64,000 bases of DNA from Armatimonadota bacterium (GTDB lineage: Bacteria > Armatimonadota > Fimbriimonadia > Fimbriimonadales > Fimbriimonadaceae), in assembly GCA_016223145.1 (NCBI GenBank), contig JACRPN010000008.1:236103-300102 (forward strand). Direction: 5' to 3'. Positions 22,148 through 31,951 of the stretch are shown piece by piece. Both the position numbers and the translations under genes were made by a program. The notes below the pieces were generated by a model. It worked only from the letters and a program-made list of their open reading frames with translations, was not told where the DNA came from and ran no database searches. The stretch's first letter is position 1. Each line of letters opens with the position of its first letter.

Positions 22148-23389
22148 ATGCGGAAGCAATTGGGCCGATTGGCCTGGCTGACAGCCTGTGGGGCTGTCCT
22201 CTGTGGGCAAGCACTGGGTTTCGGTGTCTTCACTTTGACAGCGGGACGTAAGGACTATGCCAACCGATATGACGTTGCGGGGCAGCTCATGTATGCGGGC
22301 CAGAGCAACGCGAATACCTACGCCTTTGGCAAGTGGGCTGCGTTCAACGCCTTGCCGCCAAACGTGACGAATGCGATGGTCACGTCCGCCTTGAGCACGG
22401 CAACGAACACCTGGTCCCAATGGGCCAATGTGAGCTATGACAACTCGGGCCTCAATGCGGCCGGAACGGGCCTCCTCAGGTTGCGATACGACTCGACCAA
22501 AGCAACCGGGGCGCACGCTTACGCCTTCGTTGGCGGGACTGCGGGCGAAGTGGGCTATGCCGAGATCGTCTACGGCGTCCGGCCCCAGGCCGGTGTCAAC
22601 TGGAATGCCACGAACTTCGCATGGACGATGATGCATGAGATGGGCCACACCCTGGGCCTCGTCGACCTCTATGAGAACCAGACGGAGGACTTTGCGGACC
22701 ACCCGATCAACGAGAACGCAAACCCGAATCTCACTGCGTCCTCGACGCAAGACAACGTGATGCATCGGTACAACAACGGCAATAACTACGGGAACGACCC
22801 GACAACAGGGATCGACAACGACGAGATCTTCGGTGTTTCCTACTTGTGGGGCTCCAACACGAGCCAGATTTTCACGGGCGAATTGGCGGCGGCCTTCAAC
22901 GGCAATGGAAGGCGAGGATCGGCGAACCACCATGGCCAACAGACGGCGGGATGGTGGACCTACCGAGGCACCTTCGGGAGCTACCTTCTCACCGAGAAGC
23001 CTTACGTCGACATCGACTTTCTGGGCTACACGGGAGACTTCACCGGGTCCATCTTGAGCGATGAGGCCGCAGCATGGGAGTATGTGGGGAATCAGGGCGG
23101 AGGCGTCGAGCGCTTTCGCGTGAACAAGGCCGGAATCAAGGGGAACTTCATCCTTAAGCTCAAGAGCCGCTATCTACAGGAGCGTCGTGTCGACGCCAAG
23201 GTGGTTACCGGTGGAAACGGAGTGAGCTTCACCCTTGCCCCGAATCTGAATGGCCTCACCTACGAACAGAACATCCTTGGCGGAAGGTCGTTTGCGAAGG
23301 TCTACGGGCCGGTTCCCGAGCCTTCAGCGATCGCAGTTCTTGGAATCGGCTGCTTGGCTTTCTTGCGGCGAAGGCGAAGGCTCGGCTAG
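22148..23389 (+). CDS. PEP-CTERM secreted zinc metalloprotease (matrixin-like)
   Basis: A 413-residue exported protein. MRKQLGRLAWLTACGAVLCG is the signal; the start is ATG 22148, with GGAG 9 bp before (GTG 22145 is an alternative). The extended zinc site is WTMMHEMGHTLGLVDLY, i.e. HExxHxxGxxD, followed by an apparent Met-turn region DNVMHRYNN. This places it near the matrixin/metzincin group. A C-terminal beta-rich domain follows, then PVPEPSAIAVLGIGCLAFLR and a basic end, a PEP-CTERM sorting signal. It would be displayed on or released from the surface and may process other exported proteins. No propeptide Cys switch was recognised. Confidence 0.85.
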   Translation: MRKQLGRLAWLTACGAVLCGQALGFGVFTLTAGRKDYANRYDVAGQLMYAGQSNANTYAFGKWAAFNALPPNVTNAMVTSALSTATNTWSQWANVSYDNSGLNAAGTGLLRLRYDSTKATGAHAYAFVGGTAGEVGYAEIVYGVRPQAGVNWNATNFAWTMMHEMGHTLGLVDLYENQTEDFADHPINENANPNLTASSTQDNVMHRYNNGNNYGNDPTTGIDNDEIFGVSYLWGSNTSQIFTGELAAAFNGNGRRGSANHHGQQTAGWWTYRGTFGSYLLTEKPYVDIDFLGYTGDFTGSILSDEAAAWEYVGNQGGGVERFRVNKAGIKGNFILKLKSRYLQERRVDAKVVTGGNGVSFTLAPNLNGLTYEQNILGGRSFAKVYGPVPEPSAIAVLGIGCLAFLRRRRRLG

Positions 23390-24324
23390 GCCGTAGGGAA
23401 CAGCTTGATAGCTTCCGGAGATCCGGGCTCCAGGCCCGCGCGGCGGAAGGCTTCCAGAGCCTGGGCCATGGCGTTTTCCGTTTCGGCTCGCATTGCTCTT
23501 GTGTAGGGGCGGCCTTCATCGTCGGTGGCCAGCGCGCCCAGCGCCGTTGCCAACGCTTCGGCTACTTGAAAACAGGCGTTCAGCGACGTTACCGGGTCTG
23601 GATTGGTGGGCACGTTGAAGCCGACGCCGATAGCCTCGTGCTGACGATCCGCCCGCGCACCGTCGAGGCCAAACGAAACGCCATCGTCCCAGGAGGCTAC
23701 GGAAAGCAGAGGCAGGCTCCACCCGGGCGCGCGCCAAACGAACGCGCCGTTGGCGGCAAGGTCAAGGCCAAGCGCGGCGCAGGTGCGCCAGATCTGGCGC
23801 TCGGAGAGAGTGCTTGTGCCCGAGATCACACCCACCTCAAAGCCAATATCCAGAGCTTCCTGCCTTTGCTTCAGGTCGGCGACCTTGCGATCGACGTCCT
23901 GGGGCAAGGGCATCGGCATCGCTCTTCGATCGAGACTCTTGGCAAAGGGCTCGGCGGCATGGACGAGCCGCGCGCAAGCATTGGCGCTCAGGGTTCCCTT
24001 TGCGCTCAGGTAATCCCAGCAGAGCACCAGAGAGTCGAGCGTTGCCGCCTTCTCGGGCCTTGTCGGGGAGCGCCAACCAGAGTCGGAAGCGTCCATGACG
24101 AAGACTTCAGGGTAGCCGAGGCCCGAGCGCCAGGGCTCGTCGAGCACCGCCAGGGCAGGAGCCGCCTTCATGGACCGTGGACCGACGATTTCGATCTGGA
24201 ACTGGACCATCGGCAGGGGGCCGGTCTTGGGGATCGGCAACCGGAGGGCGTCTGAGTTCAATGCGATGGCTGGGTCGCATTCGAGCGGGGCTCCGAAGAG
24301 GTCAACAAGTTCTGAAGAGTCCAT
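23386..24324 (-). CDS. ZipA C-terminal-like protein
   Basis: A 312-residue soluble protein, not a familiar one for this phylum. The C-terminal half follows the pattern of ZipA-C/FtsZ-binding domains as I recall it from beta-proteobacteria: FEVGVIS near the domain start, WRTCAALGLDLAANGAFVWR, then GFNVPTNPDPVTSLNACFQV, and LATDDEGRPYTRAMRAETE, closing with AGLEPGSPEAIKLF. The match covers the order and most key positions of the family. No N-terminal membrane anchor is present, unlike true ZipA. The function may be different from FtsZ tethering. It overlaps the upstream convergent gene by 4 bp. An alternative is that this is a general ferredoxin-like domain shared with ZipA. Confidence 0.55.
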   Translation of the reverse strand: MDSSELVDLFGAPLECDPAIALNSDALRLPIPKTGPLPMVQFQIEIVGPRSMKAAPALAVLDEPWRSGLGYPEVFVMDASDSGWRSPTRPEKAATLDSLVLCWDYLSAKGTLSANACARLVHAAEPFAKSLDRRAMPMPLPQDVDRKVADLKQRQEALDIGFEVGVISGTSTLSERQIWRTCAALGLDLAANGAFVWRAPGWSLPLLSVASWDDGVSFGLDGARADRQHEAIGVGFNVPTNPDPVTSLNACFQVAEALATALGALATDDEGRPYTRAMRAETENAMAQALEAFRRAGLEPGSPEAIKLFPTA

Positions 24325-24630: not shown

Positions 24631-25653
24631 TCAGTCCACGTACTCGAGCTCTCGGAGCATCGAGAAGCTGCTGCGCCAGTCCTCTTTGACCGAGACGTGA
24701 AGCGCCAAAAAGACGTGTCGTCCTAGTAGCTCCTCGATTTCTTTCCGCGCTTCGGTGCCCAGCTTCTTGATCATCGAGCCCTGCTTTCCGAGCAGGATCG
24801 CGCGTTGGCCGGGACGCTCAACGAGGATGGTGGCGGCGATGTGCAGCGTGGTCCCCTCGCCCGGTTCACTGCGTTCACCGGTATCTCCCCAAGGGGGCGA
24901 GGTGGCTTTGCCAGCTTCTTGTCCCTCAGTCCCCTCGTCCCTTCGTCCCTTCTCTCCCCGATGGGGCGAGGCGGCAGGCGCGCTTCCGGGCTCTTCCCAA
25001 CTGTCAATCCGTACCGCCGTCGCGTGGGGCACCTCTTGGCGCGTCGCGGCGAGAACCTTCTCCCGAATAATCTCCGAGACCAGGAACCGCGCGCTTTGAT
25101 CGGTGAACTCGTCTTCTGGAAAGAGCGGCTCAGCTTCGGGAAGGTGCGTGAGGACCATCTCGACCAGCTTGTCGAGGTTCCTAAGGCGCACCGCGTCGGT
25201 GAACATGTACTCCTCTGTCCCGAACAGCTTGCAGTAGCCTTCCACTCGCTCCACCACCAGCTCGGCAGGGAGGAGGTCCATCTTGTTCAGGCACATCAGC
25301 CGTGCGGGACCTTTGTCTGGCGCGCCCAACAGCTTCGCCAACGCGATCTCTATGTCGTCGGGCTTCTTGGAGACGTCCACCACCACAACCACGAGATCGA
25401 CGTCCGCCAGAGACCCCCTGGATTGCTCAACCATGGCCCGCTGAAGGCGGTTGTGGGGTTCGTGGAGCCCGGGGGTGTCGATAAAGCCAATCTGGTAACC
25501 CTCGCCCTGCGCGATGCCGATCACCCGGCGGCGCGTGGTCTGGGGTCTGGAACTTACGATGGACACCTTGTGGCCCACGAGCGCGTTGAGAAGCGTGCTC
25601 TTGCCCACGTTAGGCTTTCCCACCAAGGTCACAAGGCCAGATTTGAATGCCAT
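24631..25653 (-). CDS. era: GTPase Era with an inserted segment in the KH domain
   Basis: A 340-residue ribosome-assembly GTPase that binds 16S rRNA; most Era proteins are near 300 residues. G1 is GKPNVGKST, G2 Thr in QTTRRR, G3 DTPG, G4 NKMD. The KH domain ends with ILLGKQGSMIKKLGTEARKE and FLALHVSVKEDWR, all normal. Between RIDSWEE (about residue 221) and LHIAATILVER (about 270) sit about 45 extra residues, rich in Gly, Ser, Pro and charges (SPHRGEKGRRDEGTEGQEAG). The DNA there is repetitive (see the entry at 24850-24987). The insertion is in a KH loop, so the protein may still work. The gene lies 15 bp after the GH42-like gene. Confidence 0.95.
   Translation of the reverse strand: MAFKSGLVTLVGKPNVGKSTLLNALVGHKVSIVSSRPQTTRRRVIGIAQGEGYQIGFIDTPGLHEPHNRLQRAMVEQSRGSLADVDLVVVVVDVSKKPDDIEIALAKLLGAPDKGPARLMCLNKMDLLPAELVVERVEGYCKLFGTEEYMFTDAVRLRNLDKLVEMVLTHLPEAEPLFPEDEFTDQSARFLVSEIIREKVLAATRQEVPHATAVRIDSWEEPGSAPAASPHRGEKGRRDEGTEGQEAGKATSPPWGDTGERSEPGEGTTLHIAATILVERPGQRAILLGKQGSMIKKLGTEARKEIEELLGRHVFLALHVSVKEDWRSSFSMLRELEYVD
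24850..24987. repeat. repeat-derived insertion inside era
   Basis: A stretch encoding about 45 residues in the era KH domain contains two copies of the unit TCTCCCCRAKGGGGCGAGG then YGGC (24884-24906 and 24953-24975), each a CCCC/GGGG short palindrome. Between them is a run of GTCCCT/CGTCCC words (24921-24952). The same word types occur in neighbouring non-coding DNA at 24325-24630 and near 44398 and 46440. Length is a multiple of three, so the frame survives. Confidence 0.6.
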
Positions 25654-25668
25654 GCTGCTCCCGATCGG

Positions 25669-28600
25669 CTACTCCCGCTTGCGGAACAGGACGTGCATGC
25701 CAAGGTCGCCGAACGCCTCGCTCTTTTCCGGTCCAGGCTCTTGGCCACCCTTTCCACGCCGAGTCCGGCGCCTGCGCCGGCTGACCCGGGCTTCGGCTTC
25801 TGGCTCGTCCTCTGCGCCGTCGTCGCCGTCCGAGTCCACGAATTTGGGCCTCAGCAGCCACTCATCGCTCGCGTCTTCCGGAACGCCACCCTCGATGAAC
25901 TCATCGAGCTGGACGATCGGCACGTCGAGCGCCGAAAGGTCTTGTCGGACGGTGTTGTCCGTACGCGGGGGCAACTCGGAGATGGTCTCCAGACTGCTTA
26001 CGTCGCAGTTGAGCAGCGCCTCGATTTCGTGCCGCGCCCCAACGAAGAACTGGTGTGTCGCGCCGTCAAGCGCGGTGAATCGAAGGCTGGAGGAATCAAC
26101 CGCCGACCAAGAGTCTGCGAGAACGTCGTAGGCCGACCAGTTGTTGGGCAGCATGATCGTCCGCGAGCCCGCGTTTGCGGTGTGGACCGAGAGGAAAGGG
26201 GGCCTGGCGTGAACCACGTCGTCCTGATAGTTCCAGACGTGGGCCCCTGCCAGTTGGCCCAGGGCGCGGATGAGCGCGGGGGTCACCACCGGCTCGCCAA
26301 GAAAGACCGACTTCCAGTCCAGATAGGGGTCGGTCTCATCCCGGACCTCTTTGTAGACGAAGCTGGGAAGACCGGTGTGGGTGTATTCGCCGAGAACCGT
26401 TGAGCCTTCAGGAATTGCGAAGTAGCTGGGTTCCAGCTTGCCGCCACCGATGGACCCGACCCCGGCGAACGCCTCGCAGAGCGGGTGCTTTCGGTTCAGG
26501 ATGGTGGTGCCCGTGCGGCTGTGGAAAGGCTGGGGCTTGATGGCGATGCCCATGACTTCGCGAGCGCGCTCAAGAGCCTCTCGGCCGGCATCGAACAGCC
26601 CGCCGCAATAGAGCCAGAAGAGCACCTTGCCGTCCCTTTGGAGGCGTGAGCGGATCGCTGACCGATGTTCGGGGCGCATGTCCCAGGCGTTGATGAAGAT
26701 GTTGAGGCGAGTCTCCGGGAACGACTCGCGGTGGGCCAGATCGCTGAGCAGATAGAACCCCGCGCTGAGGCCGGAGCGAAGCACGGATTCGCGGACGTTC
26801 TGCACCAGCAACGCGAACGAGTTCTCATCCACGAGATAGGCAAGGGCGCGCTCGTCGATAAAGACGGCGACGTCCGGGTCTTTCAGGTTCGTGGACATGC
26901 GCCGAAGCAGCAGGTCCCGCGCTTTGGCGCCGCGCTGCCAGATTCCGGGCGTCTTCAGCCAGCCGTTGCCCCAAAGGTCCATCCAGGAGACGCCGCTGGC
27001 GTGCGCCAAAGCCGCGCCGATGCCGCGCCAGTGGACGCTCTCCAGGGCCTGGGGAGTCTTGATCTTGGGGTTGAAATCGTCGGGCTCAAAGGTCTCGGCG
27101 ATCGAGGTCTTGTAGTCCTCTTCGGAGAGGTAGAGTTTGCCGTTGAGCGGGAAGCTGTCGATCGGGGAAGGAAACGGCGCGGTGCCCTTGGGCTCGCGGT
27201 TTCGGTAGCTAGGGGGGCCCGCGATGAAGTCGATTTCGGGGGTACGGAGCAGCTTGCCGAGCGAGAGATGCCCGCTGAACGGGTGCGACCATTCGAAGGT
27301 GTAGCCGTAGTTGGTGCCGACCACCAAGTACCCTTCGCTGGCTTCCTTGACGGTGTAGGCGAGGTCGCTGATGAGGTGCGCGGTGGCGTCGCTAAGGAAG
27401 AGGTGGTAGTCCACCCACCTGCGTTCCTTGCGGCTGACGCGCATGAACTTGCCGCCCTCTTCGCCGCTGCGTTTGAATTCGGGGATCGTCAAGTTGTCGA
27501 AGGTGACATTGCCGTCAAACCACGCTGCCCGCAGCGCGACAACGTCGTTCAGGTAGCGCATTCGAGCCCAGGATCGGAACGCCTGTACGGCGGCTCGGGA
27601 GTTGTCGTATCCGACGTCGCTGGGAAGGAACCACTCGCCTCGCTCGATTTGAACGCCGAACACGTGGTTTCTGCTTTCCAGCATTCTCAGCCGGGCGACG
27701 AAGTCCGCAAGGCAAGTCTTGGCTTCGCCCCAGTACGGCTCCGAGCACACGCTTGGGTCCATGATTCGGCCCGCGCCGTCGTGGAAGACCGCGTCCGGGT
27801 ACTTCTTGTCCCAACCCCGCGGCGCGAGGAGCACCAGCCCCAGCAGAACTTGAGCTTCAGGATCCACTTCGACGGCCTTTGCCACCATATAGGCCGCGAA
27901 GCCAAGGCTCGAAGAGACGGATTGCTGGTCGATCTCGAATTCCAGCAAGATCGCATGAAGATGAATGCCCGCATCCGACGCAAGGCGAATCTCCTGGAGC
28001 ACCGTTTCGGCGCGGCGCTCGTCCGGCGCGCTCCCAAAGAAGCTGATCGGCGGATACACGCGCCCTGCTCGAACGAACGCAGGCGTTCCGTTGAGCATCG
28101 CTACCTGCGGCGCATCTTCGGGTGTTGGGATGATCGGCTTGTGAACGACCGGGGGAAGCGGCGGGATGAGCTCGACGGCCGGCTCGGGTTCGGGTTCCCT
28201 GGCGGGCCTGGCGCGTCTGGACTTCCTTGAGGACTCCGTCTCGAGGGCGTCCGCTGCGGTGATGGGAGCTTCCTCTTCGTCTCGGCCGCGGCCACGGCGT
28301 CTCGATCGGCGGGGCGCCAGGTCGGGCTCGTCCGCGGAAGCCGCATCCTCAAGTTGGCTGGGCTTTGCAGGCTTCAGGGGCTTCGAGGGGGACCGGAATT
28401 CGGCGACCGGCATGTCAGACTCTTTCACCGAAGTCACAAACGGCTCCCAGGACTTGGCCGGGGCATCTTCGGTCGAATCCGCGTACTGCCGCGAGCCTCT
28501 GCCCCTATCTGGGCCTCGGCGCTTGCCTCGGTTTCCTTCCTCGGGGGCTGTTGCGGGTGCAGGGGCCACTTCCGTTCGCGCGTCGCCTCGGCTCCGGAAG

Positions 28601-28815
28601 GTGGCTTTCGGGCGATCCTCGGCCTCTGCCGGCGTTAGGACGTTGGCAGGCTTCGACTCCTTGGGGATGCGGCCGCGCCTGGGGGGCTTTTCGGCTTGGG
28701 GCGGCTCTGCTGCCGGGGAATCCTGCTTCTTTCGGAACCGGGCTTTGGGGGCTGTGGCTACGGTGGGTTCGACGATGGGTTCAACTTCTGCGGGTGGGCT
28801 TTTTCTTCTTGCCAT
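25669..28815 (-). CDS. GH42-like protein with Arg-rich disordered tails
   Basis: A 1048-residue protein, start ATG 28815 (MARRKSPPAEVEP). The first ~240 residues are disordered and strongly basic, with RGR-type stretches (GKRRGPDRGRGSR, RRSRRRGRGRDEEE). Residues ~250-620 look like a GH42-type (beta-alpha)8 barrel (AYMVAKAVEVDPEAQVLLGL, HVFGVQIERGEWF, then RAAVQAFRSWARMRYLNDVV). The usual GH42 acid/base motif NE after GxQI is IERGEW here, so it is degenerate. A glutamine-amidotransferase-like fold follows (MRPEHRSAIRSRLQRDGKV, WLYCGGLFD), as in beta-galactosidases. The C-terminus is again basic (SRRRRRTRRGKGG). There is no signal peptide; it is likely cytoplasmic. It is in one operon with era. 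Function unknown, possibly nucleic-acid linked. Confidence 0.7.
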   Translation of the reverse strand: MARRKSPPAEVEPIVEPTVATAPKARFRKKQDSPAAEPPQAEKPPRRGRIPKESKPANVLTPAEAEDRPKATFRSRGDARTEVAPAPATAPEEGNRGKRRGPDRGRGSRQYADSTEDAPAKSWEPFVTSVKESDMPVAEFRSPSKPLKPAKPSQLEDAASADEPDLAPRRSRRRGRGRDEEEAPITAADALETESSRKSRRARPAREPEPEPAVELIPPLPPVVHKPIIPTPEDAPQVAMLNGTPAFVRAGRVYPPISFFGSAPDERRAETVLQEIRLASDAGIHLHAILLEFEIDQQSVSSSLGFAAYMVAKAVEVDPEAQVLLGLVLLAPRGWDKKYPDAVFHDGAGRIMDPSVCSEPYWGEAKTCLADFVARLRMLESRNHVFGVQIERGEWFLPSDVGYDNSRAAVQAFRSWARMRYLNDVVALRAAWFDGNVTFDNLTIPEFKRSGEEGGKFMRVSRKERRWVDYHLFLSDATAHLISDLAYTVKEASEGYLVVGTNYGYTFEWSHPFSGHLSLGKLLRTPEIDFIAGPPSYRNREPKGTAPFPSPIDSFPLNGKLYLSEEDYKTSIAETFEPDDFNPKIKTPQALESVHWRGIGAALAHASGVSWMDLWGNGWLKTPGIWQRGAKARDLLLRRMSTNLKDPDVAVFIDERALAYLVDENSFALLVQNVRESVLRSGLSAGFYLLSDLAHRESFPETRLNIFINAWDMRPEHRSAIRSRLQRDGKVLFWLYCGGLFDAGREALERAREVMGIAIKPQPFHSRTGTTILNRKHPLCEAFAGVGSIGGGKLEPSYFAIPEGSTVLGEYTHTGLPSFVYKEVRDETDPYLDWKSVFLGEPVVTPALIRALGQLAGAHVWNYQDDVVHARPPFLSVHTANAGSRTIMLPNNWSAYDVLADSWSAVDSSSLRFTALDGATHQFFVGARHEIEALLNCDVSSLETISELPPRTDNTVRQDLSALDVPIVQLDEFIEGGVPEDASDEWLLRPKFVDSDGDDGAEDEPEAEARVSRRRRRTRRGKGGQEPGPEKSEAFGDLGMHVLFRKRE

Positions 28816-31135: not shown

Positions 31136-31501
31136 ATGGAAAACCGTATCCAAAACTCACGCATCGCCGAGCTGATCCAGAACCGGCCCGTCGGGCTGCC
31201 CGGACAGGCGGCGATCCAGCCGAACGAGTTCCAGTCGGTCCTTCAGGACCGCCTGAAGATCAGCGGCCATGCCCAGACGCGGCTGCAAAGCCGGAACATC
31301 GAGCTCGACAAGGCTCAATGGGACCGCGTGATGCAGGGCGTCGAAAAGGCGGCCACCAAGGGGGCGAAGGAGTCGCTTGTCATGGTGGACGACGTGGCGC
31401 TCATCGTGAGCGTGAAGAACCGAACGCTGATCACGGCGGTCGAGCAAGGCGCGCTCAAGGAGAACGTGTTCACCAACATCGACAGCGCGGTGATTGTCTA
31501 A
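31136..31501 (+). CDS. flagellar operon protein, TIGR02530 type
   Basis: A 121-residue protein of the small family found next to flgD/flgE in Firmicutes and relatives (TIGR02530). The fingerprint ISGHAQTRLQSRNIELDKAQ, then VEKAATKGAKESLVMVDDVA, is visible, with a C-terminal IVSVKNRTLITAVEQG strand pair. It has not been assigned a biochemical role; its position suggests hook assembly. It starts 3 bp after flgD and is followed by the 42-bp minisatellite. Confidence 0.85.
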   Translation: MENRIQNSRIAELIQNRPVGLPGQAAIQPNEFQSVLQDRLKISGHAQTRLQSRNIELDKAQWDRVMQGVEKAATKGAKESLVMVDDVALIVSVKNRTLITAVEQGALKENVFTNIDSAVIV

Positions 31502-31556
31502 GATGAGCGCTTTCACGTGGTCGGGAAACGGTGTGCGGTGCACGCTGGGTGTCTCG

Positions 31557-31750
31557 CGGTGTTCCGCGAGTGACTCAGCGCCCACGCTGAACGACTCACG
31601 GTGTTCCGCGAACGACTCAGCGCCCCCGCTGAACGACTCACGGTGTTCCGCGAACGACTCAGCGCCCACGCTGAACGACTCACGGTGTTCCGCGAGTGAC
31701 TCAGCGCCCACGCTGAATGACCCAGCGCCCCCGCTGACTGACTCAGCCCT
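31557..31750. repeat. 42-bp minisatellite in the hook operon
   Basis: Four copies of a 42-bp unit begin at 31557, 31599, 31641 and 31683, and a shortened fifth follows. Each begins CGGTGTTCCGCGARTGACTC and contains the palindrome TCAGCG-CCCM-CGCTGA. Differences between copies are few (AGTGA/AACGA and CCCAC/CCCCC). Because 42 is a multiple of three, the region is open in several frames on both strands, so openness is not evidence of coding. The array separates the TIGR02530-type gene from flgE. Confidence 0.8.
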
Positions 31751-31951
31751 CGGGCAGGATGACTTGGCGCTCGGGCGGAAGGAGTCCCAACAACTTGTCG
31801 GCCGAGTCGGATCGGCCCAGACCCGCTTGCCTCAGCAAGCGAGCATCCCAAGCGGACGGACGGGATCGGGGTTCCTCCTCGAGCGTCCAGCCCAGAGCCA
31901 GAAGGCGCTCTGAGCACCGCTGCAATAAGACAAACGGAGGAATCTCAACTC

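Follow-up and report, generated by a model that had tools for sequence, protein, structure and literature searches.

The locus raises the question of what a protein with the body of a glycosidase and strongly basic ends does beside era, the gene of a ribosome-assembly GTPase. The window, which is the whole stretch of 64,000 nucleotides analyzed from a contig of a Fimbriimonadaceae bacterium (Armatimonadota), encodes this protein of 1048 amino acids on the minus strand (25669-28815, with the ATG at 28815), and no report on it was found in the open-access literature. The first-pass annotation, made from the sequence, described a cytoplasmic GH42-like protein with a degenerate acid/base site and basic disordered tails, in one operon with era, and proposed that a carbohydrate fold had been recruited to RNA or ribosome work. 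Much of the description was borne out. The protein starts with MARRKSPPAEVEP... and lacks a signal peptide, its two ends are disordered and rich in Arg (model pLDDT <50 over the last ~90 residues), and era lies 15 bp downstream on the same strand (24631-25653, minus strand), identified as GTPase Era by NF000908 (315 bits, with a cut-off of 237).

The relationship to GH42 was also upheld. The window protein itself scored 14.5 bits against Pfam GH42 (PF02449), under the cut-off of 21, and an orthologue from outside the order (L089) passed it with 35.9 bits. The profile of 75 orthologues was aligned with that of 20 genuine GH42s by hhalign with an E-value of 3.8e-19 over 605 columns. Searching the solved structures by sequence returned only GH42 matches, which were weak, and the identity to known GH42 structures was 12-15%. 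The AlphaFold2 model of residues 215-1048 (pLDDT 80, pTM 0.83) matched whole GH42 chains, with 601 residues aligned to 3tts (Z 22.3, rmsd 3.5). Because the profile comparison and the whole-chain structure match agree, the modeled body is a complete three-domain GH42 fold, in which a TIM barrel with eight strands (about residues 229-640; 26896-28131) is followed by a Rossmann-like domain of the GH42 trimerisation type and C-terminal beta domains (about residues 641-957; 25945-26895), all on the minus strand.

One copy of the gene was found in 40 of 41 relatives, all but a genome that is 72% complete; in one genome (G028), two partial matches on different contigs showed the pattern expected of a split gene. 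In several other families of Armatimonadota, strong single matches stood above a weaker tailless background. For the comparisons below, 47 orthologues from within the order, 28 outer orthologues, and 10 tailless relatives were used, mostly from metagenome-assembled genomes, and the tails were counted over the 75 orthologues. The tailed orthologues formed one clade against the ten tailless relatives (SH-aLRT 99) in a tree built without the catalytic columns, using a quick search and no bootstraps. The window gene thus belongs to an orthologous group that is specific to the phylum and encodes, in single copy, a cytoplasmic GH42-fold protein.

The tails distinguish this clade. The N-terminal tail of the window protein (residues 1-228; 28132-28815, minus strand) carries spaced Arg clusters with acidic and Pro spacers. 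The N tails of the orthologues, ~130 to 450 residues long, have such clusters with acidic, Pro, and Ala spacers; at least five K/R in 10 residues were found in 74 of the 75. The disordered C-terminal tail (25672-25944, minus strand) contains the RRRRRTRRGKGG cluster, and at least six K/R in 10 residues were found in the C tails of 72 of the 75 orthologues. No such tails were present in the 10 tailless relatives. Among 329 genes in a 464-kb genome sample (about 12% of the genome, with simple gene calling), the window gene alone had at least six Arg in 10 within the last 60 residues.

The tails also share a short motif. In Fimbriimonadales, the sequence [DE]3-4-L-P-[VI]-P-[TS]-[FW]-R-[PS]-R (more loosely, acidic-L-P-[VI]-P-x-[FW]-R-x-R) recurs, and one to five [FW]R copies per protein were found in 45 of 47 proteins. 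Arg follows Trp at 37 of 46 positions in the N tails (p 7e-28) and Phe at 51 of 133 (p 1e-16), compared with 8.6% and 6.5%, respectively, in the sampled proteome. Motif analysis placed three copies in the window protein, at 28723-28764 (APKARFRKK), 28585-28626 (DRPKATFRSRG), and 28384-28425 (SDMPVAEFRSPS), all on the minus strand. A related peptide, FGDLGMHVLFRKRE (25672-25713, minus strand), forms the extreme C-terminus; it typically reads D-L-G-M-N-V-[VM]-F-R-K-R-[ED], and F-R followed by K/R at +3 was found in 47/47 orthologues of the order. No other gene in the genome ends in [VI]-x-F-R-[KR]-[KR]-[DE].

The wide variation in tail sequence and length would fit neutral, low-complexity extensions typical of high-GC genomes. 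This explanation is scarcely credible given the precise motif and C-terminal peptide, the lack of tails in the tailless relatives, and the uniqueness of the Arg-rich C-terminus in the gene sample; furthermore, RR and RG/GR pairs occur in the tails at about twice or more the frequency in shuffled tails. The Arg clusters would be expected to bind a polyanion or RNA, and no RNA-binding domain was recognized in the tailed protein; the clusters could alternatively bind DNA, polyphosphate, membranes, or acidic proteins. An AT-hook reading of the N tail was rejected, as RGRP occurred in just 4 of 75 orthologues.

The state of the active site bears on whether the protein is still an enzyme. In clan GH-A enzymes, the catalytic pair is located at the ends of barrel strands 4 and 7. 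The supposed degeneracy of the acid/base site (IERGEW) did not hold in the sense meant; the Asn of the NE pair is missing, but Glu394 of ERGEW (27634-27636, minus strand) was kept in 40/47 orthologues of the order, 28/28 outer orthologues, and 10/10 tailless relatives. Since this residue is retained across the groups, GEW in place of NE is, on sequence grounds, a signature of an Armatimonadota subgroup, and the window protein is possibly active. The candidate nucleophile, Glu565 of LSEEDYKT (27121-27123, minus strand), was kept in 43/47, 28/28, and 10/10, respectively. In the structural comparison proposed by the first-pass annotation, E394 was placed just after strand 4 and E565/E566 at the end of strand 7; the positions suit a catalytic pair, with the exact register uncertain because the profile alignments were gapped at both sites (exactly at Glu394 for the first). 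The window protein therefore retains a plausible pair and may have enzyme activity. Most members, including 28/28 outer sequences, have both residues, so most lineages probably still benefit from catalysis.

One or both glutamates were gone in eight sequences of the order, all from Fimbriimonadaceae, corresponding to at least four changes on the tree. All eight still had the long N tail, the FR motifs, the C-terminal peptide, the Arg cluster, and a full-length core. No other result speaks as strongly as this loss, with the core and tails kept, for a retained role other than catalysis or additional to it.

These data weigh differently on the reading of the protein as an active glycosidase inside the cell that belongs to a divergent GH42 subgroup, with tails that serve solubility or loose localisation and an era linkage that reflects inherited gene order. 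The Glu pair at strands 4 and 7 and the complete GH42 architecture speak for it, as does the abundance of GH42-like enzymes in the phylum, where a genome can have up to 26 matches. A HAD phosphatase gene (HAD_2) directly upstream of the tailed gene in many relatives also fits an enzyme; it was found in outer loci L082-L089, L091, L092, and L095, and in 15 of 23 loci of the order (e.g., L036:4277-5005). The gene was nevertheless retained through the changes between intact and broken Glu sites, and the tails, motif, and C-terminal peptide are conserved far beyond chance, so that we consider a plain glycosidase somewhat unlikely. The phosphatase was rejected as a necessary partner, as no close homologue was found in the genus of the window.

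The pairing with era was examined in other genomes, as the first-pass annotation had proposed, and it held across much of the order. In 39 of the 40 loci with downstream sequence, era came after the tailed gene in the same orientation; in the remaining one it was on the opposite strand. The gaps measured between the two genes nearly all fell between -8 and +6 bp, and overlaps of -1 and -4 were among them. Such near-zero gaps are typical of translational coupling, and the tailed gene would thus be coupled to era. In the outer families, the tailed gene was present with no era within the flanks examined; the adjacency is limited to part of the order. The era linkage is therefore younger than the tails, and the tails did not arise for Era. 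The conserved pairing and its near-zero gaps support the proposed link to Era or the ribosome, and the younger age of the adjacency weakens it.

A direct role as a ribosome-assembly factor working with Era, with the tails binding the 16S rRNA precursor or the 30S subunit, would explain the pairing, its tight spacing, and the Arg/RG-rich tails; moreover, the known neighbours of Era often act on the small subunit (PMC10582724). A tailed protein older than its era linkage argues against this role, which we regard as improbable.

The Era protein of the window has a 44-residue in-frame insertion in the KH region (residues 222-265; 24859-24990) that is absent from relatives. It consists of a dispersed DNA repeat that matches about 50 other places in the genome; a normally essential gene here tolerates a repeat element. 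Elsewhere in the window (31157-31913), overlapping ORFs with a tandem repeat of ~13 residues (AEHRESFSVGAES and its shadows) lie between flagellar-type genes.

The tail motif resembles the C-terminal peptide of FtsZ, with which it shares an acidic run, a hydrophobic residue, x, and [IV]-P-x-[F/W] followed by Arg. A profile of 86 N-tail motifs (positions -9 to 0, FtsZ left out) was scored against the 7,064 F/W sites in the genome sample. One host FtsZ has a C-terminal peptide that outscored every site, and the C-terminal peptide of the other was the second-best background site. When the 49 FtsZ peptides of the order were shuffled with their composition preserved, a median of 1% of the shuffles attained the true score. 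The likeness is partial, as judged from the peptides; FtsZ has F-[LI]-R, whereas the tail motif has [FW]-R with no Leu/Ile between the aromatic residue and Arg, and the tail motif is repeated on an unrelated protein, whereas the FtsZ peptide is a short linear motif on a disordered linker. Families f1, f3, and f5 had two FtsZ genes in the genomes searched, and f2 and f4 had one. Both FtsZ types end in a standard FtsZ C-terminal peptide; in genome G000, the genes are located at C13:153124-154068 and C11:55572-56522 (L191 and L219).

The next gene after era (23386-24324, minus strand) encodes a protein like the C-terminal domain of ZipA (PF04354, 23.7 bits). Its model (pLDDT 91) matched the FtsZ-binding domain of ZipA with Z 18.4 and rmsd 1.8 over 134 residues, and the next unrelated entry reached Z 5.6. 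The protein has an additional N-terminal half; no hydrophobic segment was found when its sequence was searched for an N-terminal transmembrane anchor, and the model starts with a short helix. Of the 41 genomes searched, 12 have this gene and 29 do not; it adjoins era in all seven family-f1 genomes having it and lies elsewhere in five genomes of a second family. As the motif occurs order-wide, the ZipA-like protein was rejected as its sole partner.

From these observations, the tailed protein can be conceived as divisome-linked, with tail motifs that mimic the FtsZ peptide, engage proteins of the FtsA, SepF, or ZipA type, and connect Era or growth status to division. The profile and shuffle results and the ZipA-domain gene beside era favor such a link, and Era is tied to cell division in other bacteria (PMC10582724). 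The missing Leu/Ile, the occurrence of the motif in genomes without the ZipA-like gene, and the ease with which likeness between short acidic-hydrophobic peptides can arise by convergence make it quite improbable. The idea matters because the tie of Era to division has long been known and its mechanism was called "elusive" in a 2023 review (PMC10582724). We give a similarly low chance to a broader proposal, in which the GH42-fold scaffold would bind RNA or pre-ribosomes via its tails and the FtsZ-binding hub via its motifs, physically linking Era-dependent ribosome assembly to division, with enzyme activity lost in several lineages.

Our main reading, to which we assign a probability of roughly 0.45, is that the protein is a GH42-fold scaffold in which catalysis is dispensable, held in place by RNA- or polyanion-binding tails and co-made with Era. 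The ancestor would have been a catalytically competent glycosidase, as the retained Glu pair suggests. The long Arg-rich tails would tether the globular part to a polyanionic scaffold, with RNA or ribosomal particles as the likeliest candidates, and the repeated motif, with one copy at the extreme C-terminus, may dock a partner protein, to judge from its conservation. In Fimbriimonadales, the gene order and the gap point to co-translation with Era. As one or both catalytic glutamates disappeared in several lineages that kept the core and tails, the main conserved role there would be to act as a scaffold or regulator without catalysis; most members, the window protein among them, may still be catalytic as well.

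The repeated loss of catalytic residues, tails with docking-like motifs, and the era operon together suggest that an old enzyme fold took on scaffold work. The proposal that a carbohydrate fold was recruited is thus favored by the conserved era pairing, the tails kept in kind, and the Glu losses, and tempered by the Glu pair in the window protein. Its direction toward the ribosome is less certain, as a hub around the FtsZ C-terminal peptide is equally indicated by the tail motif and by the neighbouring gene with the ZipA domain; RNA binding, FtsZ-hub binding, and the link of the tailed protein to Era are what we infer. If the main reading is true, the protein would clearly exemplify the conversion of an enzyme into a scaffold, made together with a ribosome-assembly GTPase that is usually essential. 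With FtsZ-peptide-like motifs in the protein encoded on one side of era and a ZipA domain in the one on the other, the operon offers a concrete lead that can be tested in Fimbriimonas, a cultured genus.

Besides the FtsZ peptide, three known systems can be compared with this protein. The GH42 beta-galactosidases of Thermus (A4, 1kwg) and Bacillus circulans (3tts) share the whole barrel, Rossmann-like, and beta-domain architecture and would correspond to it in the candidate Glu pair at strands 4 and 7. In contrast to them, the window protein has Gly-Glu-Trp for Asn-Glu and scores below the Pfam cut-off, and the tailed protein is cytoplasmic, is encoded in an era operon, has long Arg-rich tails, and in several lineages is without the catalytic residues. 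The tailless GH42-like proteins of Armatimonadota (L112-L121) have the same core and the same GEW and E[DE]D motifs; unlike the tailed protein, they have no tails and are often multi-copy. RNA-decay scaffolds such as RNase E have Arg clusters and short docking motifs in long disordered tails, and the tailed protein resembles them in both. The core of the tailed protein, unlike those of RNase E-type scaffolds, is a glycosidase fold. The host RNase E/G has no such Arg-rich tail, but a role of the tailed protein as a degradosome scaffold was set aside because nothing ties the two together.
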